DNA of 64,000 bases from Thermoprotei archaeon. GTDB taxonomy: Archaea; Thermoproteota; Thermoprotei; QMSL01; B3-G16. Made by a program: the position numbers and the translations under genes. The stretch is from the NCBI GenBank assembly GCA_021162845.1, contig JAGGXX010000047.1:1-64000 (forward strand). Reading direction: 5' to 3'. Under the pieces are notes generated by a model. That model had not been told where the DNA came from. It saw only the letters and a program-made list of their open reading frames with translations, and did no database searches. Shown here piece after piece: positions 1,831 to 45,185 of the stretch (its first letter is position 1; every line of letters starts with the position of its first letter).

Positions 1831-2414
1831 ATGGCTAAGCGACCTACATATAGGATAGAGAATGTGGTTGCCTCGGTTAACCTTCATCAAAGAGTCGATC
1901 TAAACGCTATAGCTGAGAATGTGCCTAATGCTGAATATAATCCAGAACAGCCAGGCTGAGGGCCTGGCTCTGAGAGTTCCCAGGTCTAGTATTCAGGCTA
2001 TCGAAACCCAAGACAGCTACGCTCATCTTTAGCTCGGGAAAAATGGTATGTACCGGAGCTAAATCTGAGAAGCAGGTATTTAAGACCGTGAAGAGGATAA
2101 TTCGCACCCTGAAAAGGTATAACATAGTGATAAGTAAAGAGCCTGAGATTACCATTCAGAATGTAGTTGCTTCGGGGAATTTACATGCCGAAGTGAACTT
2201 AGAGAAGGTGGCTTATCTGCTTGAAAACAGCATGTACGAGCCAGAGCAATTTCCAGGCCTAATATATCGCATGGATGACCCTAAGGTTGTCCTGCTCATA
2301 TTCAGTAGCGGTAAGCTCGTTTGTACAGGTGCTAAGAAGGAGGATGAGGTCAAGCAGGCGGTGAACAAGATATACCAGAGGTTGAAGTCATTAGGTGTGC
2401 TATACGAGGAGTGA
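1831..2414 (+). CDS. tbp: TATA-binding protein, interrupted by a 26-nt intron
   Basis: General transcription factor that binds the TATA box and recruits TFB and RNA polymerase. Exon 1 is 1831-1948 and exon 2 is 1975-2414; joined, they encode 185 residues, the usual archaeal TBP length. The two direct repeats are complete only after joining: repeat 1 has NPEQ then FPGLVFRL and [14 protein letters not shown]; repeat 2 has [12 protein letters not shown] and [14 protein letters not shown]. Unspliced, the frame ends at TGA 1957 after 42 residues. A gene finder would see only residues from Met2043 and call a truncated protein. A GNAT gene follows at once. Identity is certain; splicing is inferred from structure and homology. 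Confidence 0.93.
1949..1974 (+). other. Predicted archaeal (BHB) mRNA intron in the TBP gene
   Basis: TBP homology requires removal of 26 nt, with three equivalent junctions (1949, 1950 or 1951 as first base). The RNA folds as a bulge-helix-bulge. The central helix is CAGA (1943-1946) with TCTG (1969-1972). The 5' bulge is ACA (1947-1949) and the 3' bulge is AGA (1973-1975). The inner stem is GCCAGGC (1950-1956) with GCCTGGC (1962-1968), closing a 5-nt loop. Cutting each bulge after its second base gives exactly 1949-1974, one of the three permitted junctions. The outer exon helix is weak, so the motif is of the relaxed type lacking the outer helix. The intron carries an in-frame TGA. Confidence 0.88.
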
Positions 2415-3507: not shown

Positions 3508-4081
3508 ATGATGATAGAAGTACGCTGGCATGGGCGAGGTGGACAAGGCGTAGTCACTGTAAGCCGCTTATTAGCCATGGCTGCCCTCCATGAGGGCAAG
3601 TACGTACAGGCGATCCCGCAATTCGGCCCCGAGACGCCCTACTAGGGCGCGGGATAGAAGCGGGGCGCCTGTCACAGGCTATACTAGGATAAGCGATGAA
3701 CCTATCGATATACATAGTGGAGTGTACAGCCCCGATATCGTAGTAGTGATAGATCCCTTCGTCATACGAACCGTAAACGTATTAGAGGGCCTTAAGGAAG
3801 GGGGCTCCCTAATAGTTAACTCAAGCGAGGATCCATCTAGTCTAAAGAACGAACTGAAGATTACCAATCCAGTGTACACGGTTGATGCCACTAAGATAGC
3901 ATTGGACATATTCAATAGGCCGTTCTTCAATACGCCTATGCTGGGTGCGCTTGTAAAGGTTACCAAGATAGTGTCGTTGGACTCCGTGGAGAAGGCGATA
4001 AGGGCACGGTTCGAAGGCACTCTAGCTGAGAAGAACATTCAAGCCGTTAAAAGGGCATATGAGGAGGTGAAAGGCGAATGA
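3508..4081 (+). CDS. porC: Pyruvate/2-oxoacid:ferredoxin oxidoreductase gamma subunit, interrupted by a 22-nt intron
   Basis: Gamma subunit of the CoA-dependent 2-oxoacid:ferredoxin oxidoreductase, which decarboxylates 2-oxoacids in the cytosol. Exon 1 (3508-3633) encodes [16 protein letters not shown] through IPQFGPE. Exon 2 (3656-4081) continues [17 protein letters not shown]. Joined, the product is 183 residues, normal for the family, and rebuilds the conserved FGPERSGAP motif. Unspliced, translation stops at TAG 3643 after 45 residues. It overlaps the delta gene by 4 bases (ATGA) and heads the gamma-delta-alpha-beta operon. Start and family are firm; splicing is inferred from homology plus the folded motif. 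Confidence 0.92.
3634..3655 (+). other. Predicted archaeal (BHB) mRNA intron in the gamma subunit gene
   Basis: Homology requires removal of 22 nt between the GAG codon at 3631 and AGA AGC GGG. The fold is a bulge-helix-bulge. The central helix is CCCG (3628-3631) with CGGG (3650-3653). The 5' bulge is AGA (3632-3634) and the 3' bulge is ATA (3654-3656). The inner stem is CGCCCT (3635-3640) with AGGGCG (3644-3649) around a 3-nt loop. Cutting each bulge after its second base yields exactly 3634-3655. The outer exon helix has a single C-G pair, so this is a relaxed motif. The intron carries an in-frame TAG. Confidence 0.88.
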
Positions 4082-10063: not shown

Positions 10064-12964
10064 ATGCCTAGGGTTCATAGCCGTACTAGAGAACTGGGTA
10101 AAATTAAGGCGTTTGAGCTATTAGCTAAGCCAGTGAGAGAAGCCCTTCTCGAGAAGGGCTTCTTAGAGCTAACAGAGCCTCAGGAGAGAGCAATCCCTCT
10201 CATCATGGATGGCCATAACGTATTGCTAATAGCCCCTACTGGTACGGGTAAGACCGAAGCAGCCGTACTCCCAGTATTCAGCTTGTTTCTCAACTTAAAG
10301 GAAGAAGAGGGGGAACTCGAGCCGGGCATTTACATACTCTACATCACGCCATTGAGGGCGCTTAATCGGGATTTACTGGAGAGGCTTACGTGGTGGGGTA
10401 AGAAGCTGGGTATCCGTGTTGCAGTACGCCATGGTGATACCGAACAAGCCGAGAGAAGCAGACAGGCAAGAAAACCTCCTGAACTGTTAATCACCACACC
10501 TGAGACGCTACAAGCGATATTAACCGGGAGGATAATGCGCGGTCACCTGAGAAAGGTTCGCTGGGTAATAGTGGACGAAGTGCATGAGCTAGCGGAGGAT
10601 AAAAGAGGTGCTCAGTTAGTCCTGGCGCTAGAGAGGCTTCGCCTTATATGTGGGCGGGCCTTTCAGCTAATAGGCCTTTCAGCTACTATAGGTTCCCCCG
10701 AGGAGGTAGCCCGTTTCCTAGTAGGGGTTAATAGGGACGTTAAGGTAGTTAGGGTACCAGTCGCACGGTTAATGAAGCTTAATGTGATCTTCCCTGCTCC
10801 TGCTCAAATAGACTATGAACTTAGCCTCAAGCTCTACACGCATCCAGAGGTCGCAGCTAGGCTTAGGTATATCAGGGACTTAGTAGAGAGGCATAACTCA
10901 GTCCTACTATTTGTCAATACGAGGGCTATAGCTGAAGTCCTCGCCTCAAGGTTTCATGTGTGGGACGTGGGTTTTCCAATAAGCGTACATCATGGCTCGC
11001 TCGCCAAGCCATCCCGTATAGCTGCTGAAAGGGGGCTAAAGGATGGAGTTCTTAAAGCATTAGTATCGACCTCATCGCTAGAGCTAGGAATAGACGTGGG
11101 ACACGTGGATCTAGTGATCCAGTACATGTCACCTCGTCAGGTTACAAGGCTCGTTCAAAGGGTAGGTCGCTCAGGGCATAGGATAGGTGGTACGGCCAAG
11201 GGGGTCGTAATAACGGCTGATCCGGACGATACGCTTGAAGCAATGGTCATTTGTCGTAAAGCGCTTAATGAAGAGTTAGAACCGTTGATGATACCTGAGA
11301 AGCCCTTAGACGTTCTCAATCATCAAATAGTAGCTCTTCTTATGCTGAAGCGGCGCTGGACCTTTGATGAAATACTGAGCCTCTATCGCCGTGCTTATCC
11401 CTACAGGAACTTGTCAAAGGACGACCTCCTCTTCGTACTGCGATATATGCATAGCCGTTATCCAAGGCTTGCATGGATCGCCGAGGAAGAAGAAGTGGTG
11501 CTTAAGCCCAGGCGCACTAGGGAGATGTATCATTACTTCTTTGAAGAGCTCTCCATGATCCCCGATGAGAAGCATTATTTGGTAGTGAACAAGCAAGACG
11601 ATACTCCCATTGGCTTACTAGACGAAGCCTTTTTAGCGGAATACGGAGAACCAGGTACTAAATTCGTCTTCCGCGGTAACGTCTGGATAATTTCCGATAT
11701 AGTACAGGATAAGGTATTCGTTATGCCTACTGATGACCCTACAGGCGCCATACCCTCCTGGGTTGGCGAGGAGATCCCGGTGCCTTATGAGGTAGCCCAA
11801 GAGGTCGGAGCCCTAAGGAGAAGAGTGATCGAGGCATTAAGCCAAGGTCTTACTCTAAAAGACGTGACTAAAGAGCTCATCAGGTTATATCCCGCTGATG
11901 AGAATTCAGCCTATAGGGCATTACTTGAAACGGAGGAGCAATATAAGTGTGGCTTACCCGTTCCAACGGATAGATTAGTGCTCGTGGAATCATGGGGAAA
12001 CTTGATAGTCGTTCACACACACCTTGGAACACTAGCTAATCGCGCGTTGGCTCGCCTATTAGGCGAAGTTATCGCGGATATCGTGGGATCAAGCATTGGC
12101 GTACAACAGGATGCATATCGCGTGGTCCTTCAACTGCCTAGGAGAATGAAAGCTAAAATCATAAAGAAGGCCTTAATGAGACTCTATAACGAGGATTTAA
12201 ATAAGCTGATCAGACGCATCGCGCATCGCTCAGGTCTTTTTAAGCGTCGCCTGATCCATGTGGCTCGTCGCTTCGGCGCGTTAAAGAAGTCCGTGGATTT
12301 CACAGGTATAAGTATAAGGCGCTTAGTCGAGATGTTCGATGGTACCCCCATCTATGAAGAAGCGCTCTCGGAGTTTCTACAAAGGGATCTAAACCTTAAA
12401 ATTGCTCGAGCATTCATCGAGCGAATAGTTGAAGGTGATTTACCGACTGAGTACGTGGATTCTGAATCTCCTTCTCCCCTTACCAGGTTGGCCCTAGAGC
12501 GTATAGCTCGTAAAACAGAGCTCATACCACCTGAGCGCTTGCATAGAATAATCCTCGATGCTACGCGCGCCCGCTTATTTAATGAGGCGCTAGTCTTCAT
12601 ATGTACTGAGAACTGGGATTGGTACGACACTATCGTAATTAAGAATCTCCCAGACGAGGTCAGATGTCCTGTGTGCGGTTCGCCGAACATCGGTGTGCTA
12701 AAGGATGAGAAGTTTGCTACTAAGCTAACAGCCCTTAAGGGCAAGGTCAGAAGCAGATATGAGTTACGCGTCCTGCGTGAGGTAATCAAGAGCGCAGAGC
12801 TTATTAAAAGGTACGGGAAGACTGCCGCGCTCGCCCTATGCGGTCGCGGCCTTAGAGTAGAAGACGTAAGGGAGATACTCAAACATGAGCATAATGTCTC
12901 AGAACATCTCATAGAACTGATAATACAGGCTGAGAAGCGAGCCCTAAGGAGGCGCTTTCTTTAA
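10064..12964 (+). CDS. lhr: Lhr-type superfamily 2 DNA/RNA helicase
   Basis: ATP-dependent helicase of the Large-helicase-related family, linked to DNA repair and RNA remodelling. It has 966 residues. Q-motif region LTEPQERAIPLI; Walker A APTGTGKTEAA (about 56-66); Walker B DEVHELAED; motif III SATIG. RecA domain 2 has STSSLELGIDVGHVD and motif VI QRVGRSGHRIGG. A winged-helix and Lhr-core region follows. Near residue 875 is a half zinc motif, CPVCGSPNIGVL. Its last 21 bases overlap the convergent transglutaminase-fold gene. Confidence 0.93.
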   Translation: MPRVHSRTRELGKIKAFELLAKPVREALLEKGFLELTEPQERAIPLIMDGHNVLLIAPTGTGKTEAAVLPVFSLFLNLKEEEGELEPGIYILYITPLRALNRDLLERLTWWGKKLGIRVAVRHGDTEQAERSRQARKPPELLITTPETLQAILTGRIMRGHLRKVRWVIVDEVHELAEDKRGAQLVLALERLRLICGRAFQLIGLSATIGSPEEVARFLVGVNRDVKVVRVPVARLMKLNVIFPAPAQIDYELSLKLYTHPEVAARLRYIRDLVERHNSVLLFVNTRAIAEVLASRFHVWDVGFPISVHHGSLAKPSRIAAERGLKDGVLKALVSTSSLELGIDVGHVDLVIQYMSPRQVTRLVQRVGRSGHRIGGTAKGVVITADPDDTLEAMVICRKALNEELEPLMIPEKPLDVLNHQIVALLMLKRRWTFDEILSLYRRAYPYRNLSKDDLLFVLRYMHSRYPRLAWIAEEEEVVLKPRRTREMYHYFFEELSMIPDEKHYLVVNKQDDTPIGLLDEAFLAEYGEPGTKFVFRGNVWIISDIVQDKVFVMPTDDPTGAIPSWVGEEIPVPYEVAQEVGALRRRVIEALSQGLTLKDVTKELIRLYPADENSAYRALLETEEQYKCGLPVPTDRLVLVESWGNLIVVHTHLGTLANRALARLLGEVIADIVGSSIGVQQDAYRVVLQLPRRMKAKIIKKALMRLYNEDLNKLIRRIAHRSGLFKRRLIHVARRFGALKKSVDFTGISIRRLVEMFDGTPIYEEALSEFLQRDLNLKIARAFIERIVEGDLPTEYVDSESPSPLTRLALERIARKTELIPPERLHRIILDATRARLFNEALVFICTENWDWYDTIVIKNLPDEVRCPVCGSPNIGVLKDEKFATKLTALKGKVRSRYELRVLREVIKSAELIKRYGKTAALALCGRGLRVEDVREILKHEHNVSEHLIELIIQAEKRALRRRFL

Positions 12965-37065: not shown

Positions 37066-37623
37066 CTAAGCTTTAAACCACTTGAACATGTAATAACGTA
37101 TCTCTCTAGTCTTTGGGTGTACTGTAGCCAGTATGAAGCGCTTTCTGACGCTATGCGAAAGTCTTCCAGCCTTCACTATTTCTATGGGATCTAGCTTGGC
37201 TTCATACGGCATAACATGGACTAAGAAAGGCGCATGGTCTATCCCAGGTCCATACCTGTAAACGGCGAAAGTGCTACCGAATTTCAGTCCAGGACGAACT
37301 ACGTAGCCTTTAGCACGAAGATCCTTGTAGACCTCATATACATCATCAAACATGTCAAATGCCTTCCTACCTAACTCCCTAAGTTCATCTGGTTTAAGGT
37401 TCTTACCGTTATGATCTATGACTTCTATTCTCCCACGCTCGAGGAGGTATAGGGCTTCGACGAGGGACAACTCCACCGGTCGCTCTATATCTAATTCCTT
37501 TGGCTTGCTTATCCCCACGAATTTGCCATAATATCCCTCCTTGTAAAGCCTCGGCCCTCTTTGTTCATCCCATGCTATTATGCGTGATCCCAGAACGTAG
37601 GTCTTTACCTTCTCCTCACTCAT
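37066..37623 (-). CDS. endA: tRNA-intron (splicing) endonuclease
   Basis: Cleaves bulge-helix-bulge motifs in precursor tRNA and mRNA, leaving 2',3'-cyclic phosphate ends. It has 185 residues from the ATG at 37623; a TTG three codons upstream is less likely. N-terminal domain: YVLGSRIIAWDEQRGPRLYKEGYYGKFVG and ELSLVEALYLLERGRIEV. Catalytic domain: RPGLKFGSTFAVYRYGPGIDHAPFLVHVM, holding the Tyr and His. The Lys is in LSHSVRKRFILATV. The triad is complete, so this is a catalytic subunit. Three predicted substrates lie in this window (1949-1974, 3634-3655, 45132-45147). Confidence 0.94.
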   Translation of the reverse strand: MSEEKVKTYVLGSRIIAWDEQRGPRLYKEGYYGKFVGISKPKELDIERPVELSLVEALYLLERGRIEVIDHNGKNLKPDELRELGRKAFDMFDDVYEVYKDLRAKGYVVRPGLKFGSTFAVYRYGPGIDHAPFLVHVMPYEAKLDPIEIVKAGRLSHSVRKRFILATVHPKTREIRYYMFKWFKA

Positions 37624-44897: not shown

Positions 44898-45096
44898 TTT
44901 TCGATTAAGCAAAGAATAGAATACATTTCTGTCCTATTAAAACATTTCGCTATCGTAATGGAACAGACTGGGAAGGCCTCGCTCTTCATGTTCTTGTAAG
45001 CATCCTAGTTATCTAGATACATCCTCAGCATTTAAGAATCGATCTTTGTAAAATTATCTATAGACATAGTAATCAATTATAATAATTAGGAAATGG

Positions 45097-45185
45097 TAGC
45101 CCGGCGGGGATTCGAACCCCGGTCGGCGGGGATCCCCCCTGAACGGGCCAGAGCCCGCCATGCTTGGCCGCTACACCACCGGGCT
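45097..45185 (-). tRNA. tRNA-Gln (CUG anticodon) with a 16-nt intron
   Basis: Acceptor AGCCCGG pairs CCGGGCT, with discriminator A. D arm GTGT...GCAT. Anticodon stem GCGGG pairs CCCGC around loop CTCTGGC, whose anticodon CTG decodes CAG. T arm CGGGG-TTCGAAT-CCCCG. A CCA end is encoded (45094-45096). The anticodon stem pairs only if 16 nt are removed between positions 37 and 38. Exons are 45148-45185 and 45097-45131. Family and identity come from pairing and anticodon, not from a search. Confidence 0.93.
45132..45147 (-). other. tRNA-Gln intron at position 37/38
   Basis: Intron sequence is CCCGTTCAGGGGGGAT. Central helix: exon CTCT (32-35) with GGGG in the intron, using two G-U pairs. Bulges are GG then C at the 5' site and AT then C at the 3' site. 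Exon and intron bases are divided 2+1 and 2+1, as in the two mRNA introns of this window. The canonical 37/38 position supports the call. At 16 nt it is short for an archaeal tRNA intron. Confidence 0.85.

Follow-up and report, generated by a model that had tools for sequence, protein, structure and literature searches.

The pre-mRNA intron of the cbf5 gene in Desulfurococcales and Sulfolobales was reportedly described by Watanabe in 2002 and by Yoshinari in 2006. In the open-access literature, splicing of an archaeal protein gene has been confirmed by experiment for cbf5 alone (PMC2738675, PMC7714728), and the cbf5 pre-mRNA intron is known from these same two orders, the Desulfurococcales and Sulfolobales (Yokobori 2009, PMC2738675). 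The relaxed specificity of the heterotetrameric crenarchaeal splicing endonuclease EndA has been linked to pre-mRNA introns (PMC2738675). Apart from cbf5, archaeal pre-mRNA splicing has so far rested on predictions. A search of the open-access literature found no paper linking the TATA-binding protein (TBP) with an intron. A sequence-only reading of the locus described here had named cbf5 as the main known host, beside few other genes, and knew of no intron in TBP.

The analysed window is the whole stretch of DNA formed by bases 1-64,000 of contig C38 of a draft archaeal genome (G000; 2.18 Mb, 68 contigs, ~95% complete); we know of no culture of the organism. The unspliced tbp reading frame that opens at 1831 reaches a TGA within an insert after 42 aa, and TBP resumes in a different frame at 1975. 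Removal of the 26 nt from 1949 to 1974 gives a complete two-repeat TBP of 185 aa (...NPEQFPGLVF...LYEE; PF00352, 6.8e-70). Taking the tbp insert out thus recovers a conserved protein, as expected of an archaeal bulge-helix-bulge (BHB) pre-mRNA intron. The sequence-only reading had proposed the insert with exactly these coordinates, with exons in different frames, a TGA between them and NPEQ-FPGLVF as the restored motif, and all of these points were borne out, the insert itself by comparative data. It had also let exon 1 end after Gln40 and exon 2 begin at Phe41; the junction stands, but exon 1 ends within the Gln40 codon, which the insert splits as C/AG. Since AG is repeated, deletion of 1950-1975 or 1951-1976 yields an identical TBP, and the BHB cut rule selects 1949-1974. 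A genome-wide search for tbp returned three pieces, all of one tbp gene, and found no second copy in the ~95% complete genome; an intact tbp elsewhere had been named beforehand as an observation that would speak against the intron. The coordinates of the features are given in the table. Comparison of the sequences makes it highly probable that 1949-1974 is a real archaeal BHB pre-mRNA intron. A lone BHB match proves little; the proof is comparative, resting on the shared site, the covariation, the codon constraint and the exact empty sites.

Table. Features of the tbp and porG loci of the window, with the related features elsewhere in the same genome and in a relative. Positions are those of the window unless another sequence is named.
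Feature	Position	Strand	Remarks
tbp exon 1	1831-1948	+	codons 1-39 plus base 1 of the Gln40 codon
tbp BHB intron, 26 nt	1949-1974	+	in-frame TGA inside
tbp exon 2	1975-2414	+	bases 2-3 of codon 40, onward from F41 to the stop codon
tbp central 4-bp helix, exon strand CAGA	1943-1946	+	pairs maintained in all 15 aligned introns
tbp 5' bulge ACA, 3 nt	1947-1949	+	predicted cut 1948/1949
tbp inner stem-loop	1950-1968	+	1950-1957 paired with 1961-1968
tbp central helix, intron strand TCTG	1969-1972	+	pairs with 1943-1946
tbp 3' bulge AGA, 3 nt	1973-1975	+	predicted cut 1974/1975
porG (2-oxoacid:ferredoxin oxidoreductase gamma subunit) exon 1	3508-3633	+	
porG BHB intron, 22 nt	3634-3655	+	helix CCCG/CGGG, bulges AGA and ATA, inner stem CGCCCT/AGGGCG
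porG exon 2	3656-4081	+	
EndA subunit	37066-37623	-	Tyr/His/Lys of the catalytic (alpha) subunit; presumed excision enzyme with a beta-like partner
cbf5 BHB intron, 19 nt	window genome (G000), contig C21, ~21860 (L207, L233)		cbf5 introns of 19-22 nt also in L205, L206
G003 second-repeat tbp intron	L007, 1787-1813 (G003:C1, ~64.0 kb)		

The fold proposed for the tbp insert in the sequence-only reading, with a CAGA/TCTG helix, ACA and AGA bulges and a 7-bp inner stem, is present, and the inner stem consists of seven Watson-Crick pairs and one additional G-U pair closed by the loop GAG. Cleavage between the second and third bases of each bulge, the rule of the splicing endonuclease, gives exactly 1949-1974 and matches the coding junction; the ends coincide as had been claimed. 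The 4-bp central helix with two 3-nt bulges on opposite strands is found in 15/15 aligned introns. The outer helix at the tbp site has 1 bp only (C1942-G1976), so that the canonical hBHBh' form is absent and the tbp motif is a relaxed BHB. An outer helix is optional, and cbf5 introns ordinarily have relaxed motifs (PMC2738675). The minimum-energy fold at 37 C retains the central helix, the 5' bulge and the inner stem, but shifts the 3'-side partners of C1942/U1941 by one step. The folding energy is unexceptional (z = -1.3 to -1.5), and stability taken by itself is a weak argument. A de novo scan of 379 kb for BHB motifs with a rescued frame returned 52 matches, compared with 51 in a mirror-image control, and was discarded as useless on its own as a genome-wide intron finder.

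The tbp genes of relatives had been pointed out as a place to look for the same site, and there the intron was found, with compensatory changes in its stems. The gene is split in 4/4 genomes of the window's order, by 26 nt in the window, 28 nt in G001, 27 nt in G002 and 31 nt in G003; the G002 insert keeps the frame and contains an in-frame TAG. A further 12 sampled genomes of Thermofilaceae type carry a same-site intron of 28-31 nt. The phylum sample comprised 398 genomes, and the same-site intron occurs in 16 sampled genomes plus named public MAG contigs. Within this sample, families f5, f8 and f10, which belong to the window's class and are represented by the public MAGs Thermoproteales AUK141 (L028), Thermofilaceae S146 (L033) and archaeon S6B1_HD70 (L039), have tbp split at residue 40. 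Complete single-contig chromosomes (1.61 and 1.83 Mb) are among the intron-bearing genomes, and some of the single-contig genomes may be cultured Thermofilum species.

At the common site, 21 introns were extracted, 14 of them distinct, with one of the 21 coming from the second-repeat site. Alignment of 15 distinct introns showed that 12/12 stem pairs form and that all 179 cells are paired. Changes on both sides were found for 8/12 pairs, as expected of compensatory evolution, and double-change cells number 31, compared with 8.3 in shuffles. When the partner was slid by 1-3 columns, pairing fell to 7-48%. A covariance model (R1) of the intron plus 18-nt flanks was run over the phylum. Occupied tbp sites match it over 62-67 nt with 63-85 bits, and the other TBPs show the exact empty site of 36 nt (18+18) with at most 30 bits. 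Weak R1 matches in other families are these 36-nt empty sites and were rejected as introns. Splits of TBP in family f4 drafts were likewise rejected, their positions being scattered; these frameshifts, in drafts G362, G369, G381 and G393 of genus g8, are likely indel errors.

The codons flanking the site are also constrained. PEQ is coded CC[GA]-GAA-CAG at 16/16 intron-occupied first sites of tbp. In the same genomes 1/17 second-repeat sites have this coding, and the single case bears an intron itself; intronless genomes have it at 15/192 sites. P values for these codon counts are weakened by shared ancestry, and the second repeat within each gene serves as the internal control. Pairing in the BHB helix evidently holds its exon strand to particular synonymous codons at PEQ.

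In yeast TBP, Phe99 and Phe190 are the DNA-intercalating residues. Alignment to full-length yeast TBP (1rm1_A) is ungapped, with residue n corresponding to yeast n+58, and places the tbp intron directly before Phe41, the equivalent of yeast Phe99. In G003 only, a second tbp intron, a BHB intron of 27 nt, lies in the second TBP repeat at the site homologous to the first (EPEQ/FPGL) and directly precedes Phe132, the equivalent of yeast Phe190. The outer helix of this second-repeat intron has 4 bp. Its sequence is 85% identical to the first-site intron of G002 and 58% identical to the first-site intron of its own gene, and only the G002 match exceeds a structure-matched null (P ~0.004, the best of several comparisons). 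These identities suggest that the second intron of G003 was copied from a first-site-like intron. Copying could have proceeded by reverse splicing guided by complementarity in the central helix, or by gene conversion from repeat to repeat. More tentatively, and with well under an even chance in our estimate, the BHB mini-introns may be target-site-specific mobile elements that copy themselves into key-residue codons of conserved motifs. On the TBP tree, the intron label requires two changes rather than marking a single clade. The tbp intron may have arisen once and been lost several times, may have been gained twice at one target, or may have spread by horizontal transfer.

Another intron, absent from the sequence-only reading, lies 1.7 kb downstream of tbp in porG, where joining of the exons restores the conserved motif FGPE-RSGAP. 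The same porG site is split by 23 nt in G001 and by 20 nt in G003. Among the other class members listed, porG runs uninterrupted through this site, and by this comparison the porG intron looks like a gain of the window's order. The cbf5 gene is split by 19 nt in the window genome, 20 nt in G001 and 22 nt in G003. This split falls between bases 1 and 2 of the Asp codon in GGTLDPKVSG, and the catalytic Asp is the published site. The cbf5 intron of the window genome serves as an internal positive control. A split at this cbf5 residue is also seen in additional members of the class; the lineage lies beyond the orders listed in PMC2738675. No other BHB split was found in 677 kb of the window genome, of which 178 kb had homologous coding alignments. 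In view of the surveyed stretches, such introns are few rather than pervasive.

Three candidates from the survey were rejected. A 31-nt candidate in L234 has an uninterrupted xylose-isomerase-like ORF in another frame, the candidate at 5548 in L093 has weak homology only, and in a methyltransferase-like gene (L237, ~11131-11157) the frame shifts at six consecutive T without a BHB, probably through a sequence error. A tRNA gene at 45094-45185 on the minus strand, whose anticodon was not called by ARAGORN, may have an unusual loop or an intron.

The genes for the presumed splicing machinery were located as well. Besides the catalytic EndA subunit of the window, a second, beta-like EndA-family protein is encoded on contig C18 and does not have the catalytic His, an arrangement as in heterotetrameric crenarchaeal EndA. 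RtcB is encoded in 4/4 genomes of the order. As judged by gene content, the genome encodes a putative hetero-oligomeric EndA together with an RNA ligase. Splicing by EndA and the RNA ligase, the interpretation given in the sequence-only reading, is supported. In the proposed mechanism, the primary tbp transcript would fold into the BHB, the central helix being formed by the 3' ends of exon 1 and of the intron. Heterotetrameric EndA, with alpha subunits from the window and beta-like subunits from elsewhere in the genome, would cut each bulge between its second and third bases, and RtcB would join 1948 to 1975, restoring the Gln40 codon before Phe41. Without splicing, translation would end within the intron and no TBP would be made. 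Cleavage and ligation of the tbp mRNA are inferred, as are RtcB as its ligase and any role in regulation.

A sequencing or assembly error, or a pseudogene, would be in keeping with the fragmented state of the 68-contig draft, with the BHB-free homopolymer-type frameshift found elsewhere (L237, ~11131) and with the TBP frameshifts scattered over some family f4 drafts. However, inserts of 26, 27, 28, 29 and 31 nt occur at one exact tbp site across independent genomes, with compensatory stem changes, some of them in complete single-contig chromosomes, and the split tbp is the only one found in the genome. The probability of an error or a pseudogene is close to nil, and in our view the comparative data already refute this reading. 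Programmed frameshifting or slippage of the transcript, by which full-length TBP would be produced from unspliced mRNA, is just as improbable. Archaeal cbf5 introns were once confused with translational frameshifting (PMC2738675), but the skip needed at tbp is 26-31 nt rather than 1-2, a slippery run is absent from the site, and the G002 insert keeps the frame and yet has its in-frame TAG.

Only slightly less remote is translational bypassing, in which the ribosome would hop over the insert as in T4 gene 60 or the mitochondrial byp elements. The insert is indeed a short hairpin, and in the window AG is common to the pre-gap codon CAG (1948-1950) and to the GAG (1974-1976) at which the ribosome would land. 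Inserts of Thermofilaceae type, however, begin with AT or GT, so that the codon would specify His or Arg if left unspliced and the conserved Gln once spliced. The retention of the exon-intron helix and of both bulges in every aligned sequence and the occupied published cbf5 site in the same genome also argue against bypassing. In another reading, cleavage by EndA would chiefly destroy or regulate the tbp mRNA and be followed by little ligation, making the BHB a switch rather than an obligatory intron. EndA acts in the mRNA leader of HVO_1309 of Haloferax with an effect on expression (PMC7714728), and a negative regulatory role has been proposed for the cbf5 intron (PMC2738675). However, tbp is single-copy and enough spliced mRNA must therefore form, which makes a switch unlikely, though less so than the other alternatives; regulation on top of splicing is still compatible with the data. 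An intron removed by splicing is the reading that we prefer.

TBP is a basal transcription factor common to archaea and eukaryotes, humans included. The deeply conserved intron would make this factor dependent on the tRNA-splicing enzymes. From the comparative evidence, tbp and porG appear to be new host genes of archaeal BHB pre-mRNA introns, and tbp, an essential gene, is an unexpected one. Such introns escape remark even in complete genomes. The occurrence of the same site in two lineages, together with the second copy at the homologous repeat site, provides a handle on the origin and spread of BHB introns.

Among the described systems that are close to the tbp intron is the cbf5 intron. 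Both are BHB-like and short (16-44 nt in cbf5), excision of both is attributed to EndA, both lie in a key-residue codon of a conserved motif, and both have been gained and lost by lineage. In contrast to the cbf5 intron, the tbp intron lies in another gene and in other lineages and is known here from sequence. The family of cbf5 introns, defined by the gene and its catalytic Asp codon, includes the cbf5 intron of the window genome and leaves the tbp and porG introns outside. The BHB introns of archaeal tRNA and rRNA share the motif and the cut rule with the tbp intron and presumably its enzymes, whereas the tbp intron is in an mRNA, is very short and must restore a reading frame. The BHB in the 5'-UTR of HVO_1309 of Haloferax volcanii (PMC7714728) is an EndA substrate in an mRNA, as is predicted for the BHB of tbp; the former lies in an untranslated leader, the latter in coding sequence.
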